A DNA stretch of 50,792 nt from Paenarthrobacter sp. PH39-S1 (GTDB taxonomy: Bacteria; Actinomycetota; Actinomycetes; Actinomycetales; Micrococcaceae), in contig NZ_JASISR010000029.1 of the NCBI RefSeq assembly GCF_030063245.1, positions 1 to 50,792 of the forward strand, written 5' to 3'. The first letter of the stretch is position 1. The number at the start of each line of letters is the position of its first letter. Below the pieces are notes generated by a model, which worked only from the letters and a program-made list of their open reading frames with translations, was not told where the DNA came from and searched no databases. Position numbers and translations under genes: made by a program. Below are positions 7,362 to 37,854 of the stretch, one piece after another.

Positions 7362-7749
7362 TGGGGGTCTCCTTAATTGTGCGGCATTCATCAGTCCATG
7401 ACATATACCCATCGAAGTTGCATGACTTGAGTTAGCGGCCAGGTGATTCGGAGACAAAAGCCGAGCACGGGGACGAGGCAGCGAAAGGAACACGACCGTG
7501 CGTAAATAGATGAATTCCTGATGTGTGCCTTACTCCGTGGCAATTCCTGAATAGTTGCCGTTAGATGTCCTCAGACCCATCCACTAGGGTTGGGTGGCAG
7601 GTTCTGTCTTGGGTCTGGAGGTCGTCCTAGCTAGTGGACTGCGTCTAGGATGATCACCACTATGACTGGTAATTGTGTGGGCGCTGTGGGGTAGGTTCGA
7701 GGCGAGAAGAAAGATCGGCCTGTCTGGGGACCACAATGTAGGGAGAGTA
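7362..7749. promoter_or_regulatory. Divergent region between excisionase and nuclease genes
   Basis: About 390 nt from which the leftward integration genes and the rightward nuclease gene must be transcribed. Open frames crossing it do not resemble proteins. I cannot point to a specific promoter or operator. Confidence 0.3.
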
Positions 7750-15000: not shown

Positions 15001-15438
15001 CTTCTGATCTTCCTCGAACATTATCCGTCGGAAGTCACGACGCATTTCATCGACCGCATCGGCCTGATTGACAGCACCTATGGCTCGCAATAGATGCTCA
15101 CCATCCATCAGTACTCGCTCAGTTCTCTCGGAAGAAATCTTTGCTCCATGCGCCCATTCCTTACGTGCGTCCCAGAGAACTGAAATCGCGCGCTTCTCTT
15201 CAAAGCTGGCATGATCCTTGAACAAAGGGTGCCACTGCTTATCAAAGACCCAGAAAAGGTATGCAGGGTCTGTCGAATTTGGTGTCGCGTCTCGACCCGA
15301 TAGCCCCGGTGTACGGCCCACCTGGTCTGCCCAGTCGGGCCCGCACTTACTTTCCAATAGACCAATCATCCATGGGCCAAGACCCTCAGCCACAAGGTCA
15401 AGAACTCGTCCTACTCGTTCTTTGTTTGTAGGTGCCAT
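12055..15438 (-). CDS. DUF499 (COG1483) ATPase with HEPN_Swt1-like N-terminus
   Basis: 1,127-residue protein, last of the three-gene operon. Residues 1-125 resemble the HEPN_Swt1 domain: AEGLGPWMIGLLESKCGPDW, then Arg92 and His97 in RKEWAH (the R-x4-H pattern of HEPN ribonucleases) and LLRAIGA. Walker A is at about 245-252 (TTFGGGKTHS), and Walker B is in CIILIDEWVAY. These are the hallmarks of DUF499 ATPases, which are encoded next to DUF1156 methyltransferases in archaeal and bacterial defence loci. A low-complexity linker lies near residues 1010-1055. ATG 15438 is chosen because the longer frame overlaps the upstream gene. It starts 2 nt after the DUF1156 stop. The nuclease activity of the head is inference. 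Confidence 0.88.
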   Translation of the reverse strand: MAPTNKERVGRVLDLVAEGLGPWMIGLLESKCGPDWADQVGRTPGLSGRDATPNSTDPAYLFWVFDKQWHPLFKDHASFEEKRAISVLWDARKEWAHGAKISSERTERVLMDGEHLLRAIGAVNQADAVDEMRRDFRRIMFEEDQKRLQRATEKSLSVQVDSTGLPAWRDVVEPHDDVARGSFQLAQFAADLRQVHQGVAGPEYGDPTEFFGRTYLTRGLRYLLEQAVQRLNGVGGEPVIDLMTTFGGGKTHSLLAVYHAASGTPVDKLPGMREVLDNLGLTELPSKVNRAVLVGNDLSVLGSTKSDGTVVNTMWGELAWQLGGREGFEMVARYDESSAPPPTSDLAALFEKYGPCIILIDEWVAYLRQLWSRADSLPAGTFDTHMTFVQSLTEATKAVNNALLVVSLPASDVVRDMKQSDILIENEHEIGGTAGLEALRHLRSVIHRLETAWQPATSEESFEIVRRRIFKPFGSSETASRELVVGKFLEHYRTHAADLPNEVMQPGYRSTMKAAYPVHPEVFDRLYQDWSTLERFQRTRGVLRLMATVVHALWTSGDRSPLILPSSIPLDNQKVFEEITNHLDDMWKPIVDADIAGDSSAANTIDNEIKILGRSMAAKRAARCVFLGTAPMANRRERNGSAATIRGIEQKRVVLGATYPGDNPAHLADALRRLGDYGKYMNRDHDRYWLSLQQTVSQIVQERADGYHEDQVFDELASVIRQETDKGLFQRIHRFPAGSVDVEDDPGIGLVIFGPDRAFSKRAKSEAEVAALEFLTRRGTNARIHKNSLVFLAPEVDRVDVMLNAVRDRLAWEYILDNKDSLNLDQHNVKLATSRVRQAGQTVAESIREAYKWILVPHQQPGAAVIELEAMHMNGDGSLAARVTKKADASEFVVRNYSAALLRMEINKLRLWSDQPYIPVDTMAGYFTQYVYMPKVVNPQVVIQAVWRLDEILHADIDGFAYADAYENGRFLGLTLSSPTDVRPKGLIVDPAVARKQFAADLAAAKKAEDESGNGTPAGRPASGANESDAPSAEGNQQEESASATHTSAELVTRFHATKELSPTRLVRDVGQIYEEIISHFVSAGVGVSVTIDIESDKIGELTAVQRVAIRENLQTLGFGKDDWSME

Positions 15439-15440
15439 TT

Positions 15441-18158: not shown

Positions 18159-21100
18159 TATGGCTCCATCTTCTCGGCATTGTTCCAAAACGGGTCCCAG
18201 TCGAATTCGACGCGGGCAGCTCGGGGATCTATTGATGAAGTGATTGGGTTGCGTATGTATCCAACGGCGGTGCTGTCGTCGGAGTTTACCCGTACGAGTG
18301 CGAGGACGCTGTGAATACCCTTGTTTAGGGCGGTGACAGCTTCCTGCCTGGTCAATACGAAGGTAGTCCCCCCATGGAATCGTCCTTTGACTTCTATAAA
18401 GTCGAGTCCGTCAGGAGTCCCTGATTCGATGTCGTAGCCAGGATTATTATGCGGCATTTCCGTGCAGGAATGCCCGAGGGAATCTTCCACTCGGAGCACG
18501 GCATCTACGGCTAGACGTTCAATACGGATGGTTTCCTTCGCTCGATAAGTTGCGGCATCCGGGTCCTCTAGAGCATCTAACCAACCCTGAGTAATAACTA
18601 GACACGCCCCGGTGATTCGGGGTGGGCGTGCCGAGACGTCTCGCTCCTTTTCGAGTTCTTTGAGCCTACGCTCGAGGCGTCTCGACAGAGCTTCGGCGCG
18701 CTGGCGGAGCTGGGATGCAGGGAGACGGGTTCGCTTTCCCGCACGCTCATGCTCAGCGAGTTCGAAGGCGCGCTGGTCCCAGTAGTTGATCTCCTTAGTG
18801 AGACGATCCCGTACTAGTCGTTCCGTCTTCGTGACACGTTCTACTGTGCGCGCCAAAACCACTTCCGCGTGTTCCCGAGCCACTGTCTGGGAGGCGTATC
18901 GAACGACGCGAGTATCGAGATCGAGAGACTGACACCAAGGTTCCGTGAGTATTTCTTGGCCGGTCGAACTTTCCTCTTCACTCGCCGCATCCAGATTAGG
19001 TATTGGGCTTTGTGTGAGCGCGGAAATAGTACTGTCCGCATCGACTCTCACATATTGAGCACGTCGGGAAACTACTAATGGCTGGCCGTCCTTTCCAGTT
19101 CGTCCGTCTGTGACGTCATGTTCGAGGAGGCAAACAACGTACGGTGTTGTGGCCAGGGCGGCCCGATCAACGAGAATGGCGCCTCGGCGCAGGGCGTCAC
19201 GGTAATGGTCCGTGATTACATCCATTGTTGCTGCCATGAGCGGGTGTCCAGGGTGAAGTAGCGTGGCGACATGGGCGTTACCTGCCACTCGCACGTACTG
19301 CGGGTCGAATGCGACGCGATGATAGGCGTTCACCACCGGGGCCCCGGAGCCTGTGAGTCTGTTTTGCTCCCTGACATCGGCAGGAACCGTCTTGATTTCG
19401 TAACGATGGTTCTCGCGAATACGGAGGTTTCCGCCGAGATCTTTGAATGCCTTGTGGAAGAATGCCTCCACGTGGTGCGGCTGCAGACGCGCCGCCTCAG
19501 CACGGTCCATTTGTCGGCGTACTTCCTCAACCGTAGACTTCGCAAGGTTTGAGGACACAAGTTGATTGGCCTCAAGTAGGTCGGCAACCCCGTCGGCGAT
19601 CTTCGCGTCTACTACCTCGGTGAGATACCTCTGCCTTTCGGGCGTGTTTTCTTCGCGGACAGCTTGAATCATAAGGTCGCGCAGACTATTACCCTCGAAC
19701 AAGCTTCCCAGCACATCGTAAACTCGCCCTCCGAGTGCGGAGCGTTGTTCACCCATTTTTTCCAAGAGCCTCGTGTAGACGTTTCCTTCACGGGTGTCCT
19801 TGGCCACAAGGGACCACATATGGCATACGTTTAGTTGTCCGATGCGGTGGACCCGTCCGAATCGCTGCTCTATGCGATTCGGATTCCAAGGCAAGTCGTA
19901 GTTGAGAACTAGATGTGCGTTCTTATGAAGATTGACACCTTCGCCGGCAGCATCCGTCGCCACGAGGAAAATACACTTTTCGTCCTGTTCAAAAGTTTCT
20001 TTCGCCTTTTTTCGATCCTCGCGCCGTGTACCGCCGTGGATGGTGACGACAGCATCTTCCCGTCCGAGGTGATTGATGAGCCTCGCTACGAGGTCGTCGA
20101 GGGTGTCTTTGTGCTCGGTGAAAATAATAACCTTACGGCGGGACCCTATGGCGTCACGCATTTCACTGCTGTCCTCTAGGGTGTCTCGAAGTGCATCCCA
20201 CTTAGCGTAGGAAGTGCTTGTCTTGACTGCAAGCGATTTTACTAGAAGACAATCCAGTATGATGATTTCCGCTTTGAGCTCTTCCGGTGTTCTAGCAGTG
20301 GTTGCATCCGAAACCGTTTTGTCTTCTAATGCCTCACGCTCGGCATCCGTAAGGTCTTCGATGTCCGCGTCGTCTTCAGGGACTTCAATGTCGTTGTACA
20401 AGTCGGAAGGCGAAAGGTGGCTGTCTTGGAGCTCGCTTGTAAGCCGAGTCCTTCGTCGTTCCAAAGAGCGATGGATGGCTGCTGGCGACGAGGCCAGTCG
20501 CCTTTGAAGTGTGGTCAGAGCGAATCCCACGGCGATCTTTCGCCGCCTGTCACCCTCCATGCTGTCTGCACGGTTCATCTGATCCCGCACATAGTTGGTA
20601 ACTGAGGTGTACAGGTCCTTTTCAGCCTGGCTGAGTTCGTACTGGACTGTGTATGCAAAACGTTCAGGGAAGAGCCTAGTGCCTTCGAATGTTAGAAGTT
20701 CTTCCTTGACAAGACGCCTCATCAGGTCAGAAACATCGGTCTTGCTCGTACCTTCGCGAGCGACGCCTTCGAATCGATCGGAGTCGAGAAGAGCCATGAA
20801 TAGCTGGAACTGGGCCTCCTTACCGGAATGCGGCGTTGCCGTCATCAGCAAGAGGTTCCGTGTGTGCCTTCCGAGCTCTTCTGCCATCTGGTAACGCCTG
20901 GTTTTCTTTACCTGGGACCCGAATGCTGTGGCAGACAATTTGTGTGCCTCGTCAAAGACGATGAGGTCCCAGTCGAGGCCACAAGCCTTGTCGAGAATTC
21001 CCTCGCTATTTCGAGCCAGCATGTCAAGCCTCGCTAGCCACAGCCCGCCACGAGAGAATGGGTTTACTTGACCGAGAATTCTGTCGCGGGTAAGGACTTC

Positions 21101-21655
21101 GAATTCGAGCCCAAACTTCTCCCGCATCTCCTCGTCCCACTGATCAACTAGGACACCCGGCGATACAACGAGAACGTTTGCAGCGTCTCCGCGCAGAAGT
21201 AGTTCCTTGATGAGTAACCCGGCCATGACGGTCTTGCCGGCGCCAGGATCGTCCGCAAGCACGTACCGGAGGGGTTGACGAGGTAGCATCTCCCCATAGA
21301 CCGCTTGGAGTTGATGCGGCAATGGGTTCACATTGGATGTACCCAAGGCGGCGAGCGGGTCAAACAAGTGTGCCAGCTTCATCCGTCGTGCCTCCGCGGC
21401 AAGGAGGAAAGCTTCTGGAGTGGCATCAAACGAAAAAGCGCCCCCGACTGACGTGGGCTGCAAATGTGGCAAGGCGTCTGAGAACACGATCTTCTCAGCC
21501 AAGTCGCCGTTCTCCATCCGATACGCCACAGAAGCCGAGTCGTCTGTGAGGCGGTCAACGGAAAGGATTTTCACTGGGGCTGGTCCTGCAAGGCCGGAGA
21601 CCGTTGCGCCGACTCTCAGGATTGAATACAACAAGCCCGTCAGTTCATTAGCCAT
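18158..21655 (-). CDS. SNF2-family helicase with C-terminal DUF3883 (DrmD-like)
   Basis: 1,165 residues, first gene of the operon. Q-motif-like PLPHQLQAVY at 111-120, Walker A DDPGAGKT at 135-142, DEAH box (VFDEAHK) near 235, motif III ATPHSGKE near 275, and the second helicase lobe with DAAGEGVNL and NRIEQRFGRVHRIGQ near 575-610. The C-terminus (about 1065-1145: GYDIESGTPDGLDFIEVKG, split by a loop) is DUF3883, which has a PD-(D/E)XK-like core with IEVKGR. The same architecture is found in DrmD of class 1 DISARM. It is likely to translocate on invading DNA under control of the methylation status. Transcription starts in the divergent region at 21656-22144. Confidence 0.9.
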   Translation of the reverse strand: MANELTGLLYSILRVGATVSGLAGPAPVKILSVDRLTDDSASVAYRMENGDLAEKIVFSDALPHLQPTSVGGAFSFDATPEAFLLAAEARRMKLAHLFDPLAALGTSNVNPLPHQLQAVYGEMLPRQPLRYVLADDPGAGKTVMAGLLIKELLLRGDAANVLVVSPGVLVDQWDEEMREKFGLEFEVLTRDRILGQVNPFSRGGLWLARLDMLARNSEGILDKACGLDWDLIVFDEAHKLSATAFGSQVKKTRRYQMAEELGRHTRNLLLMTATPHSGKEAQFQLFMALLDSDRFEGVAREGTSKTDVSDLMRRLVKEELLTFEGTRLFPERFAYTVQYELSQAEKDLYTSVTNYVRDQMNRADSMEGDRRRKIAVGFALTTLQRRLASSPAAIHRSLERRRTRLTSELQDSHLSPSDLYNDIEVPEDDADIEDLTDAEREALEDKTVSDATTARTPEELKAEIIILDCLLVKSLAVKTSTSYAKWDALRDTLEDSSEMRDAIGSRRKVIIFTEHKDTLDDLVARLINHLGREDAVVTIHGGTRREDRKKAKETFEQDEKCIFLVATDAAGEGVNLHKNAHLVLNYDLPWNPNRIEQRFGRVHRIGQLNVCHMWSLVAKDTREGNVYTRLLEKMGEQRSALGGRVYDVLGSLFEGNSLRDLMIQAVREENTPERQRYLTEVVDAKIADGVADLLEANQLVSSNLAKSTVEEVRRQMDRAEAARLQPHHVEAFFHKAFKDLGGNLRIRENHRYEIKTVPADVREQNRLTGSGAPVVNAYHRVAFDPQYVRVAGNAHVATLLHPGHPLMAATMDVITDHYRDALRRGAILVDRAALATTPYVVCLLEHDVTDGRTGKDGQPLVVSRRAQYVRVDADSTISALTQSPIPNLDAASEEESSTGQEILTEPWCQSLDLDTRVVRYASQTVAREHAEVVLARTVERVTKTERLVRDRLTKEINYWDQRAFELAEHERAGKRTRLPASQLRQRAEALSRRLERRLKELEKERDVSARPPRITGACLVITQGWLDALEDPDAATYRAKETIRIERLAVDAVLRVEDSLGHSCTEMPHNNPGYDIESGTPDGLDFIEVKGRFHGGTTFVLTRQEAVTALNKGIHSVLALVRVNSDDSTAVGYIRNPITSSIDPRAARVEFDWDPFWNNAEKMEP

Positions 21656-25065: not shown

Positions 25066-26331
25066 CTACGACAGCTCAGCAGAGGTTGCTGTGGACACCA
25101 AGTCGAGAGCCTCGGTAAGCAAGCCGTCTGAGGCTAGCGAGGAACCGTCCTCAGTGTAATTGCTGGGCTGGGGCTCGGGCACGCAAAGAGACGCATCATC
25201 CTTCGGTATTAGAAGGAGGACCACCTCTTGGAGGGCACGGCGGCCACCGCGGCCGCCAGCGCTGGATGAGCCACCGAGTGTACTGTGGACTGAATCTACA
25301 TACTTGTCGTAAACATGCCACTTCTCTTGCGCAATGTGAATGATGTCACGAGCGCTGAGGCCATTGCTTGCGTCGGCATCCGGAAAAGTGATGATCACCC
25401 GGCATGAGGATGTGCGCAGTGTCTCGAGAAGTTCGGTCATTGCTTCTGTTGCCTGACTTTTCATGCTGAAGTCTGACGTTTCTCGGAGGACACGTGCTGG
25501 AGCCCGACCTGCACCCGACACTTCGGGCCACCCGCCGAGTGCAATTCCTTCAAGTACATGATAGAACCGGCTGTACTGAACCGCCGAGTAGGGAGGGTCG
25601 CAGAACACGAGGTCTCCCGGTTCCAGACTTTCTGCGACGCTGATAGCGTCAGCTACTATAGCTTTGCCTATTTTCGTTGCATGTCGGTTCGCAAGCGTTT
25701 CGACTTGCTTCTGACAAATTGCAATGACGTCTCGCGTCCAAGAATTCTTGATGTATGGCAGCAGCTTTTTGGTCGGTTGAAATGGCTGAGCTGTATGACC
25801 AGGAGCTGCAGCACATACGCTTGCCGCGTGAAGGATTGCTGCAAGTCCAATCTTTCGCTGGTCTGCTACTGAAGGTAGAGATGAGTAGAGCAAGTCAAGA
25901 ATATAGGCCTGCTGTGGCGAAAAATAGTGTCCGCCATAGTCACGCGTGATGAAATGCTCTTCAGTAAATCGAGACGACTTTTTCCTTGCTCTCATGACTG
26001 TTGCTTTTCCGAGGCGTGCGATTGGTTCTTGGAGCTGTTCGTAGAGTGGGTCGTCAATTAGTGAGCGGTGAACTGCACCTGTCCATGACGTTACGACGTC
26101 TGACTGGCTAAGCTTGGCGTCTCGCTCAGTGATGCAGCCAGCCAACACGCTGGAATAGTGTTGAAGGTCTACGCTCACCACCGGCAAGGCGGTGTTCTCG
26201 GCTATGTAATGACCGACGGAGCCGGAACCAGAAAATAAGTCTATAAACCGGGTTGAATTCTGAGCCTCCTGCAGTAGCAGTGTGCCGAGCTCTCCGCGGA
26301 GCAATACGCTCTTGCTTCCCATGTATTTCAC
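25066..26331 (-). CDS. D12-class adenine-specific DNA methyltransferase
   Basis: 421 residues. The D12 (Dam/DpnII-like) arrangement is clear: the start KYMGSKSVLL, SAM motif I DLFSGSGSVG at 31-40 and the catalytic DPPY at 245-248 (VFCDPPYSAVQYSRFYHV). A helical target-recognition insert lies between them. It should methylate N6 of adenine in a short DNA site. A Gly/Ser/Arg stretch near 355-365 and a C-terminal tail of about 45 residues are extra to the core. The upstream gene ends 40 nt before it and the HEPN-like gene follows after 25 nt. No classical restriction endonuclease is adjacent, so the methyltransferase protects the host from something else in the module or has a signalling role. 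Confidence 0.88.
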   Translation of the reverse strand: MKYMGSKSVLLRGELGTLLLQEAQNSTRFIDLFSGSGSVGHYIAENTALPVVSVDLQHYSSVLAGCITERDAKLSQSDVVTSWTGAVHRSLIDDPLYEQLQEPIARLGKATVMRARKKSSRFTEEHFITRDYGGHYFSPQQAYILDLLYSSLPSVADQRKIGLAAILHAASVCAAAPGHTAQPFQPTKKLLPYIKNSWTRDVIAICQKQVETLANRHATKIGKAIVADAISVAESLEPGDLVFCDPPYSAVQYSRFYHVLEGIALGGWPEVSGAGRAPARVLRETSDFSMKSQATEAMTELLETLRTSSCRVIITFPDADASNGLSARDIIHIAQEKWHVYDKYVDSVHSTLGGSSSAGGRGGRRALQEVVLLLIPKDDASLCVPEPQPSNYTEDGSSLASDGLLTEALDLVSTATSAELS

Positions 26332-26371
26332 GCAGAAACTCCAGAATACTTACTGTTTAAGAGCGACTCAA

Positions 26372-27721
26372 TCAAGCAAAACTCCATGCCACTACACGCT
26401 CCGTTTGCCCGAGAATAACCGTGTGGGCTCTAAGTTGATCGATGACACCGTGAGCATCAGAGTTCGTAACGGTGTCAAGTAATTCGAGTGCGATTTCCGT
26501 GTCAACCCATAGATCAAGTTTTGACTCAGGAACTTCACTAGGTGACCATAGGCCGCGGGACAGACCAAGGCTATCAATCCAGGGTTCGATTGCGTCCATG
26601 TCGATTCCAGAGTCCTCGAGGAGCCGAATGCACATTCCGGTAGATAGACGCAAGAGCACCGTGGTTCGCGCAAACATAGATTCGATGAAATCACCCGGAG
26701 CGGTGGACGCTGCGTCATTTCGGAAGGCCGCAGCCAGAGTCTCATCGATCTGTGTTGCAGTGGGATCCGTTTTGAGTTGTTCATAGAGAGCCGTCGAGAC
26801 ACTTTGTGTCGGAGTGGCCATTTTTAGCCATGGCTCCCAGCCAGACCAATCGATCTGCCCGGTTGGTTGGCCGGCTGCGTCGTGAACTTCATTTATGGAA
26901 CTAAAATTACTGGTCAGTATTCGCCGCAGCAGTGCATGATCGAGCACTGGAAAGCCGCCGCGGACATCCGGTTCGAGAGTTGTCCAGAAATGAGAAACTA
27001 CTCGGCACATGTCGGAAGTGGAGAGGTCCTCAGCAACCAGCCGCGTGGGATTGTAGCTTGCGGTGTTTCGTCGCGTGCGGTCAGCGGAGAACGACTGCAG
27101 ATCGAAGGCGATGCTTGAAAGTAGATCGTCCACGATGGGACGAAGCGCACCACCAGGCAACGCATTTACCCATGAATCGAGTTCAACGCCACCGGGGCGG
27201 AGTACCTTGCCCATTACCTGGCTCGATCGAGCGGACGTGTTCCATGCATCAAGTAATTTCCAGACTGCGAGGTGGGTGCCTTCTTTCGAAACATCCTCAA
27301 TTTGACCAGTGGCCGTCACTACGCAGTTGTAGCCATTCCCGACATAGATCCCTTCCGACGCCAGAAGTGAAATGGCGCCTCGAAGCTCAGCGTAATACGT
27401 GAGATGCACAGCCGTGGCCAGATCTCCTCGAACGAGCGCATCAACGGCACGGCCCAAATATCCCCAAGCATCTCCGCAGTGAACGAATGCTCCAGCTGCC
27501 AGATACTCGGCAAAAGCGTCCTCTTGGCTAGACGGAACTGCAAAGTTATCTGATTTGAGTTGTTTTTGTGCGTCCGCTGAATATGGATTGGAGTTTGATA
27601 ACCATGAAGCATCTGTTGTTACTTTGATGCGGGATAGGGCACTTACTATTTGATTGTGATCGGCATGTTGCATCAATAGTTTTTGGGCCGCCGAAAGTGG
27701 CGTTTGTACCGACGTTGTCAC
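26372..27721 (-). CDS. Unknown protein between DGQHR and methyltransferase genes
   Basis: 449 residues, no family recognised. The sequence is mostly helical, without membrane segments. Noticeable pieces are a helical stretch near 85-125 (CGDAWGYLGRAVDALVRGD, then AVHLTYYAELRGAISLLASEGI), a middle part with YNPTRLVAEDLSTSDM, and a regular helical C-terminus. The AELR-AI region recalls helical bundles of HEPN-type proteins, but no R-x4-H is visible there. GTG 27721 is preceded by GAGAG and lies 2 nt after the DGQHR stop, so the two are translationally coupled. The context makes it a dedicated partner of the DGQHR protein or the methyltransferase. Confidence 0.65.
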   Translation of the reverse strand: MTTSVQTPLSAAQKLLMQHADHNQIVSALSRIKVTTDASWLSNSNPYSADAQKQLKSDNFAVPSSQEDAFAEYLAAGAFVHCGDAWGYLGRAVDALVRGDLATAVHLTYYAELRGAISLLASEGIYVGNGYNCVVTATGQIEDVSKEGTHLAVWKLLDAWNTSARSSQVMGKVLRPGGVELDSWVNALPGGALRPIVDDLLSSIAFDLQSFSADRTRRNTASYNPTRLVAEDLSTSDMCRVVSHFWTTLEPDVRGGFPVLDHALLRRILTSNFSSINEVHDAAGQPTGQIDWSGWEPWLKMATPTQSVSTALYEQLKTDPTATQIDETLAAAFRNDAASTAPGDFIESMFARTTVLLRLSTGMCIRLLEDSGIDMDAIEPWIDSLGLSRGLWSPSEVPESKLDLWVDTEIALELLDTVTNSDAHGVIDQLRAHTVILGQTERVVAWSFA

Positions 27722-27723
27722 AG

Positions 27724-29256
27724 TCAGCTCTCCAAATAATGTGCAGCGCTAGCAACTGCTGCATGGGGAGAATTGCGCAAATGGAATGCGAGCTGGTTTC
27801 TGAGTTCCCTGTACCCACCGCTTCCTCGAAGCACTGCTTTCACGAGTCGTTCCTGCTCGGTTAGGCCCAATGCGCTGCTAGATCTCCAGTCAAAGCTGGT
27901 GAGGCTCTCGCAGATTTGCCCCAGAAACTCAAAGACTGGCTCATTTTCGAGTGACTTTGCTGCCAGGGAGACGTTCTCCGGTGACACATCAGAAAAGTCG
28001 GTAAGGTCCCGCCATGAGGACAATTGGAGTTCGCGATGGCGGATGTAACAAAGATCATTGATGACAGACTGGAAACCACGTACGCCTTGATCTGTTGCGA
28101 GGAGACTGTTGGTTCCGGCGAAAGCTGGATCAGTGAAACGATTCGGAGTATGGCCGTCGACATCGAGTTGCCCTGCCTGCTCCCTCAGATGTTCGGCCCA
28201 AGGTTCCTTGGCTGAGCTGGTCTTCTCTGCGAGTAAGCGCCATGCAGTTAGCAGGAAGGCCCCTTGCTGAAGACGCGACCAGGCGAGGCCGTCCCCAGCA
28301 TCTGGAGTCCCGCCAAATATGCCGCCAGCGGGGCCTTTGGTTGGTCGCCAAGACTTGATCATGCTCGAGGTAAGGCTCCGGATGAAAGCTGCTTGAGTAA
28401 CGGGACCGTTGTCTTTTCGTGTGCCCCCCAGCATATTAATTCGGCGATACCATGGGCTGTCCGGACTTGCCCAGAGGATCTCCGTAAGTTCCTGCGCCCT
28501 GCTTTCTCTGTAAACTTGAACGACTTCTCCACTATCGAGCCATGACTGTTCTCGGAGCAGTGGATACAAGTCGAATGCAAGCGATGGATTTATCTTCTTA
28601 GGCTTAATATTGATGGTCCAGAAAAGGTAGGCCTGCCAGGAGATATCAAGGCCATGGAATGCGACTACCGGGAGATAGTACTCGTCACCGTCTTTGTCGT
28701 CGTCTTCAAATGCGAAGAGTCGATGCTGGCCATCGATGACCTCGATCGGGGGCATTTGATTTTCATTATCGACAAGTTTAGGTAGGTGAAGTAATGCAGA
28801 GTTAGTTAACTGATCGTCTTCGACTTTGATTACTTCAGAGCTAGTGAGCCTTCTCCCTGAGCGTTGGTCATTGACGTTCAGGATGTTCACTACGACTGCA
28901 GTTGGTAGCCAACCAGGCTTCTTTAGGCTGTCGCTCTCGGGTTTCTGTCTTTTCGCTTCGCTGAGACCAGACCAGGGATACCCGCCTTCTACGTACCGGC
29001 GGATCTCCTCGCTTCGCTCAGGGTCGTGTTTTCTTTGGATTCCCAAGTCATCTTTACGCGGGACGCCTTCGTCTGTGGATCGGCGATAGATACCGGCCAG
29101 GGCACGTAGTTGCGATGCAGGAAGTGAAAAGAGGTAGAAGTGCTCTTTTGGACGAGCTTGGTTCTGCTTTGGGTCGTAGGTTAGTTCATCCCACTGGGCG
29201 AGCCACTGACGGACGCGTAGCGCGGGAACTGGAGTAGCAGCATCACCCTGAGTCAT
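27724..29256 (-). CDS. DGQHR-domain (DndB-like) protein
   Basis: 510 residues. The signature DGQHR is at 175-179 in PPIEVIDGQHRLFAFE, followed by the family's LPVVAFHGLD and FWTINIKPKKINPSLAFDLY (the usual F..iN..q..v). DGQHR proteins share a ParB/Srx-like fold with DUF262 and include DndB, the transcriptional and modification-control protein of DNA phosphorothioation, and DpdB. No dndA, dndC, dndD or dndE gene is in the window, so it works in another context. It is the first gene of a four-gene leftward operon with an unknown protein, an adenine methyltransferase and a HEPN-like protein. A nucleotide-dependent sensing role is inferred. Confidence 0.85.
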   Translation of the reverse strand: MTQGDAATPVPALRVRQWLAQWDELTYDPKQNQARPKEHFYLFSLPASQLRALAGIYRRSTDEGVPRKDDLGIQRKHDPERSEEIRRYVEGGYPWSGLSEAKRQKPESDSLKKPGWLPTAVVVNILNVNDQRSGRRLTSSEVIKVEDDQLTNSALLHLPKLVDNENQMPPIEVIDGQHRLFAFEDDDKDGDEYYLPVVAFHGLDISWQAYLFWTINIKPKKINPSLAFDLYPLLREQSWLDSGEVVQVYRESRAQELTEILWASPDSPWYRRINMLGGTRKDNGPVTQAAFIRSLTSSMIKSWRPTKGPAGGIFGGTPDAGDGLAWSRLQQGAFLLTAWRLLAEKTSSAKEPWAEHLREQAGQLDVDGHTPNRFTDPAFAGTNSLLATDQGVRGFQSVINDLCYIRHRELQLSSWRDLTDFSDVSPENVSLAAKSLENEPVFEFLGQICESLTSFDWRSSSALGLTEQERLVKAVLRGSGGYRELRNQLAFHLRNSPHAAVASAAHYLES

Positions 29257-29619
29257 GGGAATCCTTTGTTGTCTTACGAAGCGTCGATAGGCTAGCCTAC
29301 CCCGGTGGACTATTGACGCCCAAGTTGCGGACTAGTATGGCGGAAAGCAGAGGAATCACAACTGGTAGATACTGCGCGCCGCGGTGGTGAACTTGAAGCG
29401 CCTCTCCGGCCAAGGGTTGGAACACGGAAGTGGGGTACGGGCCTTTGCCTGTACACATCGGCAAGCGAAGGCTAGGCACCGTCACATTCAGCACAATCCC
29501 TCGGGCCGCGGCAAGACCCCAAATCAGTTCCAATCCACAAATACCAACTCGGTCCGATGACATTAGGCCGACCCCTTCCAAACCCCTAGGAACGTGGGTT
29601 AGCGGCGGTCAACTACCGC
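29257..29619. promoter_or_regulatory. Gap between HNH endonuclease and DGQHR operon
   Basis: 363 nt. It should contain the promoter of the DGQHR operon. No coding content, hairpin or operator is convincing. Confidence 0.3.
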
Positions 29620-30894
29620 TCAGTGCAATTTGTTCTGACTATTGGCATGGTGTTGTCGATGCCACGAGTAGTACTCCCGCGACTGGTCATTGAACGCCAA
29701 ACATGTTAGTCCTATGATGCACTTCGTCTTGTGTTCTACTTGCTGAAAGCCTTGGCTGCCGTGCTCGATTTTTCCGTCATCATTGATGGCAATGTAACCG
29801 AGCTCGAACAAGGCATCGCAGCCGAAAAGGCAGGCCAACATCGAGACATGGTGAATGTCCATGCGTTCATCTTCGGTACAAGCCCAGCGCGGTTTGATAT
29901 GTGCAGCGACCAAGAACGCTGTTGGAAATGACTCGCCACAGAGCGAGCAAACATTCCCGCGGCGCTTCAGCTGTTGGTCCCTGAGGAAGCGCTGCTCTCG
30001 TCGCACGGCCACGATGGATGATTTGTCGCTCAAGCCTTCAAATGCTGGCTCTGACGTTATGTCATGGAGCACATCGGTGGACGCTGTTTCGGTGACGATT
30101 TTGACACCGGCCTGACCTAATAACGCGAGGGCTCCTTCAGTATTCAGGGGAAAGAAGTATCCGTTTCGCAATCCTCCGAGAGTATTGACTGGCCCATACT
30201 TGTCGCTTGCCAGCGTTCGAAGCGCTAGGTCTCGATGAACCTGAACTCTGCTTATTGGTTTTGTAAGCACCAGGTTTCCAGCGGTTTTTGTCCCGGATTC
30301 AGCGTAGCCATGGGGCGCGTACGTGGACCCTGGCATGGTCTCAACCCGGCTCACGCCACGAATTTCAGGGGTGCCATAGTGGAAAACAACGTCTCCTGGG
30401 CTGGCGCTGTCCAGATTTCTCCAATGATCGACCTGCCTGCCACGGCTATCGCTCCGCGGGGCCCAAAGTGTCCCTTCCTGGAATACGGTGTCAAAGTTTG
30501 CCGTTTGATTGGCCCACCAGAACTTCGTGGAGGGATCTATAGAGATAGTTGCGGGCTCAAAGAGTTGATTTTGGTCAGCTGTACGGAGATCTATTAAGTC
30601 ATACCTAAGACGTTTGAGAATCGACCTTGTTTGGTCCCCTCCGGTGAGGCTCGGAGGACCATCCTTGCTGCAAGAAAACTGAAGTTGGAACGCCATGGCG
30701 AGCAGAGGTTTACTTGAAATCAGTTGCCCCTGATCTATCACAACGTACCGCTTTGATTCCTTGAATCTAGTGCGTGAAATGAATTCTTCGTTGCCAAGTT
30801 CATGCCACAGTTCTATGGCTTTAGCGACGTTATGACTGTCCAGTTCCGACCAGGTTCTCTCCATCTGTCCATTCATACAGCATTTCGGTCGCAT
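29620..30894 (-). CDS. ScoMcrA-head / EVE-like / HNH endonuclease
   Basis: 424 residues, predicted type IV-like (modification-dependent) restriction nuclease. Residues 15-103 match the ScoMcrA N-terminal head domain (AIELWHELGNEEFISRTRF, SSKPLLAMAFQ, LTGGDQTRSILKRL). Residues 125-185 resemble an EVE/PUA-like modified-base reader (FWWANQTANFDTVFQEGTLW, DHWRNL, SPGDVVFHYG). The C-terminus is an HNH_2-type domain with zinc Cys316 and Cys319 (CSLCG) and AAHIKPR (His332). The usual Asn-Gly and second His of HNH (DNGLLLC..HD) read HHVSMLAC and GCDALFE here, so activity may be altered. ATG 30894 is chosen for AAGG 6 nt upstream; 30876 and 30864 are alternatives. It is on the same strand as the DGQHR operon but 363 nt away. 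Confidence 0.78.
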   Translation of the reverse strand: MRPKCCMNGQMERTWSELDSHNVAKAIELWHELGNEEFISRTRFKESKRYVVIDQGQLISSKPLLAMAFQLQFSCSKDGPPSLTGGDQTRSILKRLRYDLIDLRTADQNQLFEPATISIDPSTKFWWANQTANFDTVFQEGTLWAPRSDSRGRQVDHWRNLDSASPGDVVFHYGTPEIRGVSRVETMPGSTYAPHGYAESGTKTAGNLVLTKPISRVQVHRDLALRTLASDKYGPVNTLGGLRNGYFFPLNTEGALALLGQAGVKIVTETASTDVLHDITSEPAFEGLSDKSSIVAVRREQRFLRDQQLKRRGNVCSLCGESFPTAFLVAAHIKPRWACTEDERMDIHHVSMLACLFGCDALFELGYIAINDDGKIEHGSQGFQQVEHKTKCIIGLTCLAFNDQSREYYSWHRQHHANSQNKLH

Positions 30895-32400: not shown

Positions 32401-32430
32401 ACTTGTAAAGCGGGGGTCGTCGGTTCGAAT
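32401..32430 (+). other. tRNA 3'-region fragment, attachment remnant C (right end)
   Basis: AAAGCGGGGGTCGTCGG begins at 32407 and runs through TTCGAAT, matching sites A and B. The upstream CTTGTAA (32402-32408) could be an anticodon loop (TGT, threonine), but flanking bases do not form an anticodon stem. Downstream the T-stem and acceptor strand are lost (TTAACGG instead of CCGAC). Hence a degenerate crossover site rather than a tRNA gene. Confidence 0.55.
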
Positions 32431-32582: not shown

Positions 32583-33464
32583 CTAATCCCGTCTCGGCCG
32601 CTCGGGCAGGCTGATGGGATCAGTGGTCTGCCCGTAGTAAGGGGCGGACGCTACTGTCATGCCGCCATCGACCACGAGGATCTGCCCGGTGATGTAACTG
32701 GAATTGGGGGAGAGCAGGAATTCGATGGCATTGGCCATATCCGCCACGGTGCCGGGATGTCCCAACGGGATTGTTGCGAGTACGGATTCCATCGGGGCCA
32801 TGCCCGGCATGCTGTAGAAGTATTCCAGCGAGTCCGAATCGATCAGGCCTCCGTTGACGCCGTTGACGTTGATGCCGTAGCCGGCAAACTCCACGGCCAT
32901 GTAGCGGACGAAGGATTCCACCGCTGCTTTGTAGGATCCGAGGGCAGCGTAGGTGGCGAATCCTCGTTGACTGCCGTAACTGGTGACCGCCACGATGCGG
33001 CCGCCTTGGTCCATGAGTTTGACCGCCTCCTGCGCCCCGAGCACAAAAGGCCGGACGTTCATGGCGTAGGAACGGTCCAGGTGGTGGGTCTTGAGGTCCA
33101 GCAGCTTTTTGAACGCCGAAGCTGCGGCGTTGTTGATGAAGAAATCCAGCCGCCCATAGGCAGCGTCCACCTCGTCGAAGAGCCGGATGATGTCGTCGGG
33201 GTTTTCGACATCCGCCTGGACCGCGATGCCGTCCCCGCCGGCGGCCTTGGCTTCGGCAACGACGGCCTCGGCCAGATCGGCGTTTTTCCGGTAGTTGATC
33301 ACCACGCTGGCCCCTTCCGCAGCCAGCTGCAGGGCCAACGCGCGGCCGATCCCGCGCGAGGACCCGGTGATCAGTGCCACCTTGCCGGCGTATTTGCCGG
33401 CTGAACCGACTGCAGCACCGTCCGCATCGCTAGATGCACCATCGGCCGCGCCGCCGGCGGTCAC
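32583..33464 (-). CDS. SDR enoyl reductase of FabL/ChcA type
   Basis: 293 residues. Rossmann SDR with the cofactor motif TGSSRGIGRAL near 33-43, NNAAAS, and Tyr-x6-Lys (TYAALGSYKAAV), the spacing of enoyl-thioester reductases (FabI/FabL, and ChcA, the 1-cyclohexenylcarbonyl-CoA reductase) instead of the Tyr-x3-Lys of ordinary SDRs. The C-terminal substrate part (GGLIDSDSLEYF, GQILVVDGG) also follows FabL. The likely reaction is NADPH-dependent reduction of a 2-enoyl thioester. The first 22 residues are a low-complexity Ala/Gly/Asp tail. GTG 33464 overlaps the acyl-CoA dehydrogenase stop (GTGA). It is the third and last gene of the coupled operon; the island's right end follows 150 nt after its stop. 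Confidence 0.82.
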   Translation of the reverse strand: MTAGGAADGASSDADGAAVGSAGKYAGKVALITGSSRGIGRALALQLAAEGASVVINYRKNADLAEAVVAEAKAAGGDGIAVQADVENPDDIIRLFDEVDAAYGRLDFFINNAAASAFKKLLDLKTHHLDRSYAMNVRPFVLGAQEAVKLMDQGGRIVAVTSYGSQRGFATYAALGSYKAAVESFVRYMAVEFAGYGINVNGVNGGLIDSDSLEYFYSMPGMAPMESVLATIPLGHPGTVADMANAIEFLLSPNSSYITGQILVVDGGMTVASAPYYGQTTDPISLPERPRRD

Positions 33465-34747
33465 CGGGCTGCCCCGGTCAGGCCCGAATCCGCGTCGTGG
33501 GCTGCGCCCATCGGTGCGGCCGGGTCCGGTGCCGCAGGGTCCGGTGCGTCCGGGGCCGCCCCGTGGCCCGCCCGGGAGAGGAGGTCTTTGGCGATCACGG
33601 CCTTCTGGATCTCATTGGTTCCCTCCTCAAAACGCTGCGCCCGGGCGTCCCGATAGACCCGTTCAATCGGTTGCGATTTCCAGTAGCCGAGCCCGCCGTG
33701 AACCTGCAGGGCCTTGTCCGTCACCCGGGTGAGCATGTCGACGGCGGTCAGCTTAGCCATCGAGGACAGGGCCGGGGCGCGATCGGAATCGGCTTCCCAC
33801 TGGGCAGCCGCGTACATGACCAGGGCCCGGGCCGCCTCGATGTCCGCAGCGTTTTCGGCGAGTAGGAACGCGATGGCCTGGCGCTGTGCGATCGGCTTCC
33901 CGAAGGTAACCCGATGCTGGGCATAGCCGACGGCGAGCTGCTGGGCGCGCTCGGCCAGCCCGACGCAGCTCATCGCCACGGAGATCCGGCTCGGTGTGAG
34001 AAATCCGCCCAAGGCAATCGTCAGGCCGTCACCCTCGGCACCGAGGCGTTGGGACACCGGGACGGGGGTATCGCGGAACGTGAGCCGGGCGTGATCGGTG
34101 CCCCGAACGCCCATGGTGTTGGAGGTGTCCTGCACCGTGGCGCCGGCAGCGTCGCGGTCCACCAGCAGAGCCACGGTACCTTCCGAGCCGCTGCTCCCGG
34201 CCAGCCGGGCGAAAAGCAGCCAATAGTCACAGTTCACGCCGAACGTGATCAGATGCTTTGTCCCGGTGAGGTAGTAAAAGTCCCCGTCCCGGCGGACGGA
34301 GCAGCTGATGTCCGCGCCTGTTCCGTTATCCGGTTCGGTCAGGGTAAAGGCCACGGTGATGTCTCCGGCGACGGAGGGGATGATGAACTTTTCCCGCTGC
34401 TCGGCGCTGGCGTGCGGGTTCATGGACCGCCACGTGCCGTTGACCACATGGACGATCATCCGGATGGAGGCGTGGGACCGGGAGAAGACCTCCATCAGAC
34501 CCATCCACTGCGTGAAGCTCAGACCGCGTCCGCCCAGTTCCACGGGCGCCGCCAGGCCCAGGAAGCCCTTGCTCTTCAGCTCGGCGCGCAGGGCCGGTTC
34601 CACCGTCCCACTGGCCTCGATCCTTTCGGCCCACGCCTCGGCGGGCCCCTCGACCCAGTCCGTGACCTCCGCCAGGAGGCTGTCGTAGAGTTCCTGCGGC
34701 ACGGCGCTGCCGCGCCCGTCCAAGGTGGAAGCCTGCCGTACCGTCAT
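33461..34747 (-). CDS. Acyl-CoA dehydrogenase
   Basis: 428 residues, FAD flavoprotein expected to oxidise an acyl-CoA to the 2-enoyl-CoA. The fold is complete: N-terminal helices (GFLGLAAPVELGGRGLSFTQW), the FAD-binding beta domain (AFTLTEPDNGTGAD), and the C-terminal helices with QVHGGLGYWKSQPIERVYRDARAQ. The catalytic base is the Glu of FEEGTNEIQ. The C-terminal 30 residues are a low-complexity tail with DPAAPDPAAP. ATG 34747 overlaps the stop of the upstream fusion gene (ATGA), and its own stop overlaps the next start. In cyclohexanecarboxyl-CoA pathways such dehydrogenases act between the reductases. The substrate here is inferred from context only. Confidence 0.85.
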   Translation of the reverse strand: MTVRQASTLDGRGSAVPQELYDSLLAEVTDWVEGPAEAWAERIEASGTVEPALRAELKSKGFLGLAAPVELGGRGLSFTQWMGLMEVFSRSHASIRMIVHVVNGTWRSMNPHASAEQREKFIIPSVAGDITVAFTLTEPDNGTGADISCSVRRDGDFYYLTGTKHLITFGVNCDYWLLFARLAGSSGSEGTVALLVDRDAAGATVQDTSNTMGVRGTDHARLTFRDTPVPVSQRLGAEGDGLTIALGGFLTPSRISVAMSCVGLAERAQQLAVGYAQHRVTFGKPIAQRQAIAFLLAENAADIEAARALVMYAAAQWEADSDRAPALSSMAKLTAVDMLTRVTDKALQVHGGLGYWKSQPIERVYRDARAQRFEEGTNEIQKAVIAKDLLSRAGHGAAPDAPDPAAPDPAAPMGAAHDADSGLTGAAR

Positions 34748-37700
34748 TTTCCGCTGGCCTTTCTTTTCGTGTGCGTCTGCGGGACCAAGTTCGCGGCGCG
34801 CTCACGCAGCACGAATTTTTGGATTTTGCCCACCGGGTTGCGCGGGATCTCGTCTATTGGTTCGAGCCGTTCGGGCCAGTAGTGTTTGCTCACGCCGCTG
34901 TGCTGCAGGAACCGCTGCAGCCCGCTGAAGCTCAGTTCCGCCGCGGGTGCCAGCCGGACGAAGGCGCAGGCGCGCTCGCCAAGCCGGGCATCAGGCATGG
35001 CAACGATGGCCACGTCGGCAATGGCGGGGTGGGTGTGCAGGAGTTGTTCGAGCTCTGCGACCGGAAGTTTCTCCCCGCCGCGGTTAATGATGTCCCGCAC
35101 GCGGCCGGTGATGCGCAGGTAGCCTTCATCGTCGATGGTGGCCAGATCTCCGGTGCGGTACCAGCCGTCGGAGCTAAACGTCTCCGCGGCCAGGTCGGGC
35201 CGGTCCAGGTAACCGTCGAAGACCGTCGGGCCGGTCAGTTCCAGATTCCCCTCCGCCTCCGGCGGCAGCCGCAGCCCGTCGTCGTCGACAATCCGCAACT
35301 GCACCCCGGTCAGTGCCCTGCCGTCGGTACCCCACGCCTTCGACGGCGGGTCCGCCGGTGAGGTGAGCGCGCCGAGCCCCGTCTCGGTGGTGCCAAAAGC
35401 CCCGCACACTGCCGTACCAAGCACGCGCGTGGCGCGTTCGGCCAGCGCCCGGGGCACGGCCGCGCCCGTCACCACGAAGACACGCAGGCGTTCCGGCCGG
35501 GTCCCGCCGTCTTCCACTGCCTGCAGCAAGTCGGTCAAAAAGGGCGTCGCGGCCTGCACGAATGTTGCTTCCCAGTCATGCAGAATTTCCAACGCCCGGG
35601 GAGCATCCCAGACGCTTTGCAGGATCTGCGGGACGCCCAGAGTGAACGACAGCCACATTCCGTAGAGGAATCCCGTCTGATGCGCCAGCGGCGACGGGAT
35701 ATAGATGGAATCGGTGGCGTTCAGGCCCAGCTGGCGCGCTGCCATCAGGGCAGCCCGGGAGAGCCGCCGGTGCGTATGGATCACACCCTTGGGCCGGCCC
35801 GAGGTGCCCGAGGTCAGCAGCAGTTGGGCGGCGTCGTCCGGACCTGGCGCGCGCGCGTCCAGGGCTGCGCGGTCGACGACGGCGGACGCCCAGGCGTGAT
35901 GCCAGGGTGACCATTGCACCCGGGGATTTGTGTTGTTGGGCATCAGCCGCGGGACACCTGCCGTGCCGTGCACGACGAAGACGTGCTCGACGCGGATCTC
36001 GGCGGTGCCGGCGGTGGTGTCCGTGGCGGCGGCTGCGGTCGCCTCATCCGCGCTGCCGCCCGCGCCGGGATCCGCTCCGCTGCCCGGACCGGTGCCGGGG
36101 CCGCTACGGTCGAGGAGCCGGGCGATTTCGCTGGCATGCTGGCGGCCGCGGAAATTGTCCGCCACCAGCAACACCTTGGCGCCGGACTGCTGCAGCGCAT
36201 AGGCAACTTCACGGTCCCCGAAGATTGGCATGATTGGCGCGATGACCGCCCCGATCCGCAGCGCCGCTGCGGAGATCACGACGAACTGGCGCCAGTTCGG
36301 CAGCTGGACGGCGATTCTGTCTCCGGCAGCTACCCCCAGGTTGAGGAAGACGGTCGCCGCGTGATCAACTTCGTTGTCAAGGGCCGCCCAGCTCAGGTGC
36401 GACGTCGTATTCCACCGGGCGTCCACCACGGCCAGGGCATGCGGTTTCTCTGTGGCCCAGCGACGGATCCAGTCCGAGGCCGTCATGGACTCGGCAGCGG
36501 CGCTCTCCTTCGCATCAGGCTCGGCGGGATGATGGAGCACAGGCCCGCGTGCGGAGCCCTGCTCCACCTCCATGTCCAGGCCGAGCGTCTGCATGGCGGC
36601 CAGGAACTTCGGGTAGGAGATTCGGTACGCATTCGGGTATGTCAGCGAGGATCTGCCGGCCGCGGCCGTTGCCGCGACGGCCAAGGACATCAGGACCCGG
36701 TGATCGTTGAAGGATGAAAGGTGGGCGCTGTGCAGTCGGGGAACACCGCGGACGCGTAAATTGCTGCCGTCAAAGCTCAGGTCTGCGCCCATGCTGTTGA
36801 GCTGGAGCATGGCCACCACGCGGTCTGACTCCTTCAGCCGGACGTGCTCCACATGCCGGAAGGCGCTTTCACCATCGGCCAGGGCCGCCATGACCGAGAG
36901 CACCGGCAGCATGTCCGGCACCGTCCGGCAATCCACGTCCAGCGGGCCCATCCGCCGGCCCTGGTGCCGCACCCTGACGCCGTCGGCCTGCCTGTCGTAC
37001 TCCATCGGCAGCCCCATCGCGGCCACGATGTCCAGCAGCTCGGACTCCGGATGGTCGGTGCCGCTGGAGCTGGTCTGGCGTAAGCCGCGCAGCAGAATGT
37101 CCGACGGGTGCAGGGCCCCTACCGCCAGCCCGAAGGCGGCGGAGCCGATGTCCGGCGGCAGGACCAAATCCGTGGGCCGCGGCATCTGGTTTGGCGGGAT
37201 GGTGTAACGCCTGCCGTCCGCGGACACATCGACCTGCAGGCCGAATTGGCGCATCATGCGCACGGTGAGCTCGATGTAGGTTCGTTCGTTGAGCGGCCCG
37301 TCGATGACCACTGTGCTCTCATCCAGCGCGAACGGAGCGAGCAGCAGCAGCCCCGAAACCCATTGGGAGAGCGTGCCGGAGATGTGCACTATGCCGCCGC
37401 TGGGACGGCGGGCCTTGACCCGGATTGGTGGGCAGTCAGTGGGGGAGGTGGCGTCTACCCCGAGTTGGCGCAGGGCGGCGAGCAACGGGCCGATGGGTCT
37501 GCGTTGGAAGTACTTTTGACCCGTGATGGTTACGTCGCGGTCTGCCAGGGAGGCCAGTCCCACCATGAAATACAGAGTACTGCCCGAGCTGCCGGCGGAG
37601 GCTGTATCCGAGCGCGGGTGGTACGGGCCGCCATGGACAATGAAGGTATCCCCGCTGATCTCGATTTGGGTGCCGAGCGAACGCAGCAGCGAGACGGTAT

Positions 37701-37854
37701 AGTCCACATGCCGGGCGTCGCTGAGCCCGGAAATGTGGCTGATGCCGGGAGCCAGCGAGGCGAGAATCAGCGCCCGATGGGCATGATATTTCGAGTTGGG
37801 GATTTGGACGTCCCCACGGATAAGGTCGTCGGAACCAATGACGGATAATTGCAC
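34744..37854 (-). CDS. EPSP-synthase-like domain fused to acyl-CoA ligase
   Basis: 1,036 residues in one open frame. Residues 1-440 are an AroA/EPSP synthase fold: Lys22 and Arg27 in NSKYHAHRAL, LSQW, RRPIG, VPDMLPVL, KESDR and FNDHR. The usual Arg of GTAMR is Tyr95 and the Lys of the C-terminal KTFP motif is replaced (ISYPKF), so the classical PEP transfer may be lost. Residues 455-1036 are an AMP-forming ligase of the 2,3-dihydroxybenzoate/fatty acyl type (LLLTSGTSGRPKG, FGTTETG, RTGDL, GRVRDIINRGGEKL, catalytic Lys in NPVGKIQK) with a Gly/Ala-rich insert. I infer shikimate-type ring elimination plus CoA activation, as the separate enzymes do in cyclohexanecarboxyl-CoA biosynthesis. First gene of the ATGA-coupled operon. 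Confidence 0.85.
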   Translation of the reverse strand: MQLSVIGSDDLIRGDVQIPNSKYHAHRALILASLAPGISHISGLSDARHVDYTVSLLRSLGTQIEISGDTFIVHGGPYHPRSDTASAGSSGSTLYFMVGLASLADRDVTITGQKYFQRRPIGPLLAALRQLGVDATSPTDCPPIRVKARRPSGGIVHISGTLSQWVSGLLLLAPFALDESTVVIDGPLNERTYIELTVRMMRQFGLQVDVSADGRRYTIPPNQMPRPTDLVLPPDIGSAAFGLAVGALHPSDILLRGLRQTSSSGTDHPESELLDIVAAMGLPMEYDRQADGVRVRHQGRRMGPLDVDCRTVPDMLPVLSVMAALADGESAFRHVEHVRLKESDRVVAMLQLNSMGADLSFDGSNLRVRGVPRLHSAHLSSFNDHRVLMSLAVAATAAAGRSSLTYPNAYRISYPKFLAAMQTLGLDMEVEQGSARGPVLHHPAEPDAKESAAAESMTASDWIRRWATEKPHALAVVDARWNTTSHLSWAALDNEVDHAATVFLNLGVAAGDRIAVQLPNWRQFVVISAAALRIGAVIAPIMPIFGDREVAYALQQSGAKVLLVADNFRGRQHASEIARLLDRSGPGTGPGSGADPGAGGSADEATAAAATDTTAGTAEIRVEHVFVVHGTAGVPRLMPNNTNPRVQWSPWHHAWASAVVDRAALDARAPGPDDAAQLLLTSGTSGRPKGVIHTHRRLSRAALMAARQLGLNATDSIYIPSPLAHQTGFLYGMWLSFTLGVPQILQSVWDAPRALEILHDWEATFVQAATPFLTDLLQAVEDGGTRPERLRVFVVTGAAVPRALAERATRVLGTAVCGAFGTTETGLGALTSPADPPSKAWGTDGRALTGVQLRIVDDDGLRLPPEAEGNLELTGPTVFDGYLDRPDLAAETFSSDGWYRTGDLATIDDEGYLRITGRVRDIINRGGEKLPVAELEQLLHTHPAIADVAIVAMPDARLGERACAFVRLAPAAELSFSGLQRFLQHSGVSKHYWPERLEPIDEIPRNPVGKIQKFVLRERAANLVPQTHTKRKASGK

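Follow-up and report, generated by a model that had tools for sequence, protein, structure and literature searches.

The contig NZ_JASISR010000029.1 of Paenarthrobacter sp. PH39-S1 (assembly GCF_030063245.1; 50,792 nucleotides, here called the window) carries on its minus strand a three-gene operon which, judged by its sequence, is very probably a conserved operon of the cyclohexanecarboxyl-CoA (CHC-CoA) type and would turn shikimate into CHC-CoA or a closely related compound with a reduced ring. The kind of operon is already known and this is a further member, carried by the Arthrobacter-type genome of a soil bacterium; the surprise is the uniformly remodelled active site of its domain related to 5-enolpyruvylshikimate-3-phosphate (EPSP) synthase, together with the spread of the family outside antibiotic producers. 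The genes lie at 34744-37854 (1036 amino acids), 33461-34747 (428 amino acids) and 32583-33464 (293 amino acids), the first two joined by ATGA (34744-34747) and the last two by GTGA (33461-33464), an overlap of 4 nucleotides in both cases. The first-pass annotation of the window had described a 1,036-residue fusion of an AroA-type protein with an AMP-forming ligase, followed through such overlaps by an acyl-CoA dehydrogenase and a FabL/ChcA-type reductase, and the coordinates, junctions and domain profiles confirm this. The features of the operon are:

36571 to 37854, minus strand: EPSP-synthase-like domain with a remodelled active site, fusion residues 1-428 (PF00275 and residue mapping).
36475 to 36570, minus strand: variable linker between the fusion domains, approximately residues 429-460 (ratio of nonsynonymous to synonymous substitution rates, dN/dS, above that of both domains in three of three pairs).
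34744 to 36474, minus strand: AMP-forming acyl-CoA ligase domain, fusion residues 461-1036 (PF00501, PF13193, and TIGR03208 below its cut-off).
33461 to 34747, minus strand: acyl-CoA dehydrogenase family protein (profile matches; ATGA overlap with the fusion gene).
32583 to 33464, minus strand: FabL-like short-chain dehydrogenase/reductase (SDR), likely an enoyl reductase of the ChcA type (profile matches; GTGA overlap with the dehydrogenase gene).

As in a CHC-CoA cassette of the ansatrienin type, an EPSP-like protein, a ligase, a dehydrogenase and a FabL/ChcA-like reductase are co-encoded in the window. The fusion protein matched PF00275 at residues 12-419 (250 bits, cut-off 22.8) and, in its ligase part, PF00501 at 464-883 and PF13193 at 934-1010, the 428-residue protein matched the N, M and C domains of Acyl-CoA_dh, and the 293-residue protein matched adh_short_C2. 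The best NCBIfam models were TIGR03208, cyclohexanecarboxylate-CoA ligase, for the fusion (448 bits, cut-off 792) and NF005975, FabL, for the SDR (250 bits, cut-off 328); for the dehydrogenase, acryloyl-CoA reductase (237 bits) and desulfinase (194 bits) ranked before NF043006, cyclohexane-1-carbonyl-CoA dehydrogenase, with 188 bits, far below the cut-off of 650. The window protein has the ligase motifs TSGTSG and YRTGD and Lys1010, which are mostly unchanged in its relatives, and the best solved relative of the ligase is the salicylate-AMP ligase 5wm2 (219 bits). Glu375 of the dehydrogenase, within the motif EGTNEIQ and presumably the catalytic base, is kept in all 69 relatives that cover the site (of 70 matches). 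The best PDB match of the SDR is FabL 3oic (177 bits); all 56 relatives share its Ser162, Tyr172 and Lys179, and because the residue four before the lysine is leucine in every one of them, the motif has the spacing Tyr-X6-Lys instead of YxxxK, as in FabL 3oic by alignment.

In named genomes 254 stretches matched a pattern, 174 of which encode relatives; locus counts given here refer to the best 80 of the 174, and labels such as L025 or L084 denote relatives from these genomes. Among named genomes Arthrobacter sp. H14-L1 and A. terrae come closest (EPSP domain 96% identical), and the organism was therefore rightly called Arthrobacter-type at first pass. The EPSP and ligase parts form a single frame in 73 of the 80, mostly from Actinomycetota but also from metagenome-assembled genomes (MAGs) of Eremiobacterota; three of these (L072, L076, L086) reach a contig end and in L077 the ligase frame is interrupted. 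The parts are split into adjoining genes in six loci, of gammaproteobacterial MAGs (L062, L065, L070, L074) and Herbiconiux (L103, L104), and the remaining locus, L056, has broken frames. Across three pairs, dN/dS was 0.08-0.19 for the EPSP part and 0.13-0.24 for the ligase part, values that are rough since dS was near or above 1. The low ratios in both parts and the recurrence of the one-frame form argue that the fusion did not arise by chance. It is the common form among the fetched relatives and no curiosity of this organism.

Within the family of the window organism, 55 of 395 genomes matched the whole protein (E <= 1e-60), 33 of them with the EPSP part and 22 with the ligase only. Further surveys used the EPSP-domain alignment as query (E <= 1e-120): positives numbered 5 of 396 in the sample of the order, 42 of 398 in the sampled family of Herbiconiux solani, 12 of 16 in the genus group of H. 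solani, and 6 of 295 in the sampled genus of Streptomyces seoulensis, where one was partial with an internal stop. The plasmid search returned a single match, annotated aroA, at 30.5% identity. In a tree made by a quick method, with support from the SH-aLRT (Shimodaira-Hasegawa-like approximate likelihood ratio test) only, 99 cassette EPSP domains (the short L056 left out) separated from 12 of the 15 AroA-like rows with a support of 100 and a long branch between the clades, and 14 split forms fell in two separate groups of 4 and 10 rows.

The cluster context of the relatives points to the pathway. Six Streptomyces loci (L057, L059, L061, L063, L071, L084) lie next to a 3-amino-5-hydroxybenzoate (AHBA) cassette and share as neighbours a DegT aminotransferase, a Gfo-type oxidoreductase, a phosphatase, a class II 3-deoxy-D-arabino-heptulosonate 7-phosphate synthase and a nonribosomal peptide synthetase (NRPS) module of adenylation, peptidyl carrier and thioesterase domains (A-PCP-TE). 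The phosphatase of L084 scored 349 bits against the AHBA-associated TIGR01454 (cut-off 247), and homologues at least 79% identical occur in all six. AHBA genes, NRPS genes and the present cassette together make up the set expected of an ansatrienin-type cluster. In ansatrienin the cyclohexane carboxylic moiety is labelled by [2-13C]shikimate and the cyclohexanoyl group is attached via alanine, according to the matched passage of PMC8788734. Matched passages also report that a CHC-CoA gene cassette in an S. avermitilis bkd mutant gave doramectin without CHC feeding (PMC4581413) and that the phoslactomycin polyketide synthase (PKS) uses CHC-CoA as starter (PMC9730843); in the latter source, as far as matched, genes for CHC-CoA formation gave no match. 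Cropp 2000, on the CHC-CoA biosynthetic cluster of Streptomyces, is cited in passages of PMC4581413 and PMC10295569, and among the literature matches listed, as far as their passages go, we found no description of the fusion or of the S. collinus genes.

In all six AHBA-NRPS loci the EPSP part is fused to the ligase part, and the first-pass statement that ansatrienin-type producers have them as separate proteins did not hold for any such locus fetched (S. collinus, whose genes are named ansJ-M and chcA, was not among them). The pathway then proposed fared better: its CHC-CoA type is supported by these six loci and by the 12 positive genomes of 16 in the Herbiconiux group, while separate proteins and uniqueness fell away. 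Likewise the gene set was correctly recognised, whereas the missing reductase of the old yellow enzyme (OYE)/FadH type and the remodelled EPSP active site were overlooked.

Counted over the loci of the best 80 with enough sequence, the cassette holds in cis the ligase in 79 of 79, the dehydrogenase in 70 of 72, the SDR in 56 of 71, an OYE/FadH-type reductase in 62 of 70 and a FabF-type ketosynthase in 28 of 71. The nearest model of the cassette OYE is TIGR03997, with scores below its cut-off. Among Streptomyces, Eremiobacterota and a gammaproteobacterial MAG, the side of the cassette on which the FabF-type gene lies differs; the neighbour in L058 (Streptomyces) scored above the fabF cut-off, those in L087 (Eremiobacterota) and L074 (gammaproteobacterial MAG) below it. 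Fifteen loci are without the SDR, namely 13 of Arthrobacter citreus relatives and two Cellulomonas taken together, and the fusions L092 (S. sulphureus) and L101 (S. albus), which have neither dehydrogenase, SDR nor OYE nearby and whose strains also carry a full cassette with FabF (L067 and L060, respectively). Seven genomes with SDR-less loci were searched and all seven hold an SDR at 65-72% identity elsewhere. In Sinomonas humi and Arthrobacter luteolus (L031, L033) the cassette stands near ribosomal-type genes, an unusual setting for a pathway of this kind: the genes of ribosomal proteins S10 and S3 were confirmed beside it in the former, and in the latter it is near an EF-G gene and genes resembling ribosomal ones.

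An OYE gene within the operon, a feature derived from these loci themselves (62 of 70 testable relatives), was not found in the window, which lowers the completeness of the operon and not its likeness to the CHC-CoA cassette. The same absence is seen in L025, L026, L028 and L029 (L027 ends too early to count), and likewise in L089, which adjoins a PKS, and L096. We found no OYE remnant downstream in the window; a tblastn match at 32584-32823 was rejected, since it lies inside the SDR gene and stems from an extra upstream frame of the query ORF (open reading frame). The window genome encodes a FadH-like OYE, a 44% homologue, on another contig (C50:14590-16656). A FadH-like OYE, 44-47% identical to the L045 enzyme, was found elsewhere in all six searched genomes whose operon has no OYE (that of L027 included), these six being one lineage, and among them the C50 type (92%) was demonstrated for the genome of L025 only. 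Among 11 genomes that do have the operon OYE, one, S. seoulensis, has a C50-type gene (70%) whose neighbour, judged by eye, looks similar to the PadR gene beside the C50 gene, and the genome of L035 gave a further match of 33%. Considering the single lineage, the demonstration in L025 alone and the PadR neighbour, we did not accept the C50 enzyme as a proven replacement.

These absences leave some room, as a minor possibility, for an operon of the same family that ends at a less reduced product, cyclohexenyl- or hydroxycyclohexyl-carboxyl-CoA, with a use other than in membrane lipid. Such a product would fit the lack of OYE and FabF beside the operons of the window, L025, L026, L028 and L029 and the missing remnant, and it is opposed by the conservation of the rest of the gene set and by the FadH-like OYE found elsewhere in six of six genomes. 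Far less likely, the cassette would serve to break down cyclohexanecarboxylate or aryl acids. The ligase and dehydrogenase do resemble CHC-degradation enzymes, and genes for a Rieske protein, FadB and FadA lie upstream of the operon on the same strand, so that a partnership with FadB/FadA could be imagined; however, homologues of these genes were found in no more than 5 of the 80 loci, each from a close relative, on which ground this reading was rejected, the cassette elsewhere adjoins AHBA/NRPS genes and FabF, and neither the EPSP-type domain nor the Tyr-X6-Lys reductase suits a degradation route.

The EPSP domain was compared in E. coli AroA numbering over 100 cassette domains (with one duplicate pair, L046/L148) and 15 AroA-like proteins, i.e. 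those of E. coli and of the window genome and 13 from 12 host genomes (L120 and L128, without a BLAST match, were left out). In the structure 1G6S, Ser169, Ser170 and Ser197 hold the 3-phosphate and Ser23 and Arg27 the carboxylate. All 100 cassette domains keep Lys22, Arg27, Gly96, Arg124, Ser170, Gln171, Asp313, Glu341 and Arg344, and 99 keep Asp384-His385-Arg386, with one gap. In contrast, Ser23 and Arg100 are replaced by Tyr, Ser169 by Leu and Ser197 by Glu in all 100, and Lys411 by Ile in 98 (Val in one, gap in one), whereas the AroA-like proteins keep Ser23, Arg100, Ser197 and Lys411 in 15 of 15 and Ser169 in 14. The corresponding residues of the window protein are Tyr23, Tyr95, Leu162, Glu190 and Ile412; of the phosphate-site serines it retains only Ser170. 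The alignment at Ser169 is unsure, because phmmer puts a one-residue gap there, but in neither case does a serine occupy the site. Positions 313, 336 and 340 were excluded as evidence, because actinobacterial AroA differ there too. In the passages matched, Lys22, Arg124 and Lys411 are named as residues of phosphoenolpyruvate (PEP) and glyphosate binding (PMC3411725), and the central domain of EPSP synthase is said to bind the carboxylate and phosphate of shikimate 3-phosphate (PMC8983318).

The window domain scores 309 bits against the aroA equivalog TIGR01356 (cut-off 287), with 320 bits for L084 and 307 for L103, and annotation based on this model would consequently label the cassette domain AroA. 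Least probable of all is nevertheless a second ordinary, e.g. glyphosate-tolerant, EPSP synthase fused to a ligase by happenstance: the passed cut-off and the retained Lys22, Arg124, Gln171, Glu341, Arg344 and Arg386 speak for it, and it was rejected on the five residues replaced in 98-100 of 100 domains, on the long branch in the tree and on the further, higher-scoring EPSP-family genes of the window genome and of 12 of 12 hosts (the window genome's second gene, the only such gene run against the aroA model, scored 340 bits).

We therefore return to the CHC-CoA-type operon, and from the observed genes, their coupling and conservation, the cluster context, the residue changes and the further AroA-like gene we infer substrate, order of steps, product and sink. 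A glutamate in the phosphate pocket should repel phosphate, and the domain thus probably uses free shikimate rather than the 3-phosphate, which it would no longer accept with the altered pocket; shikimate would be bound through the retained Arg27 and a ring hydroxyl removed or activated, possibly with Glu190, at the place of AroA Ser197, as an acid next to O3. More tentatively, and with the odds against it, the domain could be an EPSP synthase turned into a dehydratase of shikimate, the exchange of the phosphate-binding Ser197 for Glu190 having converted an enolpyruvyl transferase into an enzyme that expels the C3 hydroxyl of free shikimate. In this dehydratase version the hydroxyl would leave by conjugate elimination, and the resulting diene acid would pass straight to the ligase half of the fusion. 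The ligase would form the CoA thioester, and the dehydrogenase, the Tyr-X6-Lys reductase and an OYE/FadH-type reductase may do the remaining steps; in the lineage of the window the last enzyme would have to come from elsewhere, with C50:14590-16656 as a candidate. The CoA ester might then prime fatty acid synthesis and give omega-cyclohexyl fatty acids.

In the draft window genome (135 contigs), strong ketosynthase matches are two, in frames of 440 and 497 amino acids, and weak ones three, in frames of 424-433, and no ketosynthase was found in a large modular PKS frame. Fatty acid synthesis would accordingly be the likeliest consumer, although we give fatty acids as the sink only an even chance. 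A passage of the Herbiconiux genus description states that 'Cyclohexyl-C17:0 may be present' (PMC10011130), and the EPSP-gene rate is 12/16 in this genus group against 42/398 in its family sample. For Sulfobacillus, omega-alicyclic fatty acids from shikimic acid are reported, with genes identified and not named in the passage (PMC4378227).

Several observations weigh against the CHC-CoA reading. Against the CHC and FabL models, the ligase, dehydrogenase and SDR of the window all score too low to reach the cut-offs, and its EPSP domain passes that of the aroA equivalog. OYE and FabF are both absent beside the operon, the eight testable loci without OYE in cis include L089, which is beside a PKS, and the C50 enzyme is FadH-like, adjoins a PadR gene and is only about 41-46% identical to the cassette OYEs. 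The six AHBA loci are putative ansatrienin makers by gene content. The Herbiconiux lipid statement is made at genus level, with no strain match, and in the passages of the literature matches listed omega-cyclohexyl fatty acids are not reported for Arthrobacter; the one with both words, PMC8742107, assigns the cyclohexyl acid to other genera in its matched part.

If correct, the reading links cyclohexane-ring synthesis from shikimate to a scattered gene family accepted by the standard aroA model, and provides a signature, SKYH...HRA with Tyr23, Glu190 and Ile412, to tell it from true EPSP synthase. Cyclohexyl lipids or related products would be predicted in Arthrobacter, Sinomonas, Cellulomonas, Microbacteriaceae and Eremiobacterota. 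The single fused protein makes the chemistry of the first shikimate dehydration directly testable, and the dehydratase proposal, if true, would mean that a protein annotated by profiles as AroA commits shikimate to cyclohexane-ring formation, as the first such step, in several bacterial phyla.

Directly downstream of the operon lies an insertion of approximately 29 kb (window 3207-32426). L025 is continuous from window position 32405 to 3236 without the inserted DNA, and the 19-base repeat AAGCGGGGGTCGTCGGTTC stands at 3207-3225 and 32408-32426. A stretch at 5629-5656, adjoining an integrase gene (5907-7121), agrees with the L025 site at 27 of 28 bases; the repeat or site looks like the 3' half of a tRNA, though ARAGORN found no tRNA in the window. 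The inserted DNA encodes a NucS-C-like protein (7675-8676; a match to the PADLOC candidate PDC-S02 at 466 bits), three genes with high-scoring matches to the PADLOC Hma system (12055-21655; HmaC 918, HmaB 668 and HmaA 1329 bits) and, at 25066-30894, an adenine methyltransferase (PF02086), a DGQHR/DndB-like protein, a weakly HNH/restriction endonuclease-like protein and a protein without a match in the three libraries tried. At the opposite end of the contig (45683-50151) are ThiM-like and ThiE-like thiamine genes and genes for an NMT1/THI5-like protein and transporters.

Compared with known systems, the EPSP-like domain belongs to the AroA fold family by profile, keeps most PEP-site residues and passes the aroA cut-off, but differs from AroA by Tyr23, Leu162 and Glu190 in the shikimate 3-phosphate pocket, by the changes of Arg100 to Tyr and Lys411 to Ile, and by the fused ligase. 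The SDR shares the Tyr-X6-Lys spacing with FabL 3oic and scores below the FabL model cut-off; its likeness to ChcA is putative. TIGR03208 tops the NCBIfam ranking of the fusion and NF043006 is third for the dehydrogenase; in contrast to the enzymes of these models, the window proteins are far under the curated cut-offs and the cassette is found beside biosynthetic genes. Unlike the ansatrienin-type CHC-CoA clusters, the operon of the window has no OYE, PKS, NRPS or FabF gene alongside; what it shares with them is the fused EPSP-ligase, the dehydrogenase and the SDR, which in the six AHBA-NRPS loci stand together with the OYE.

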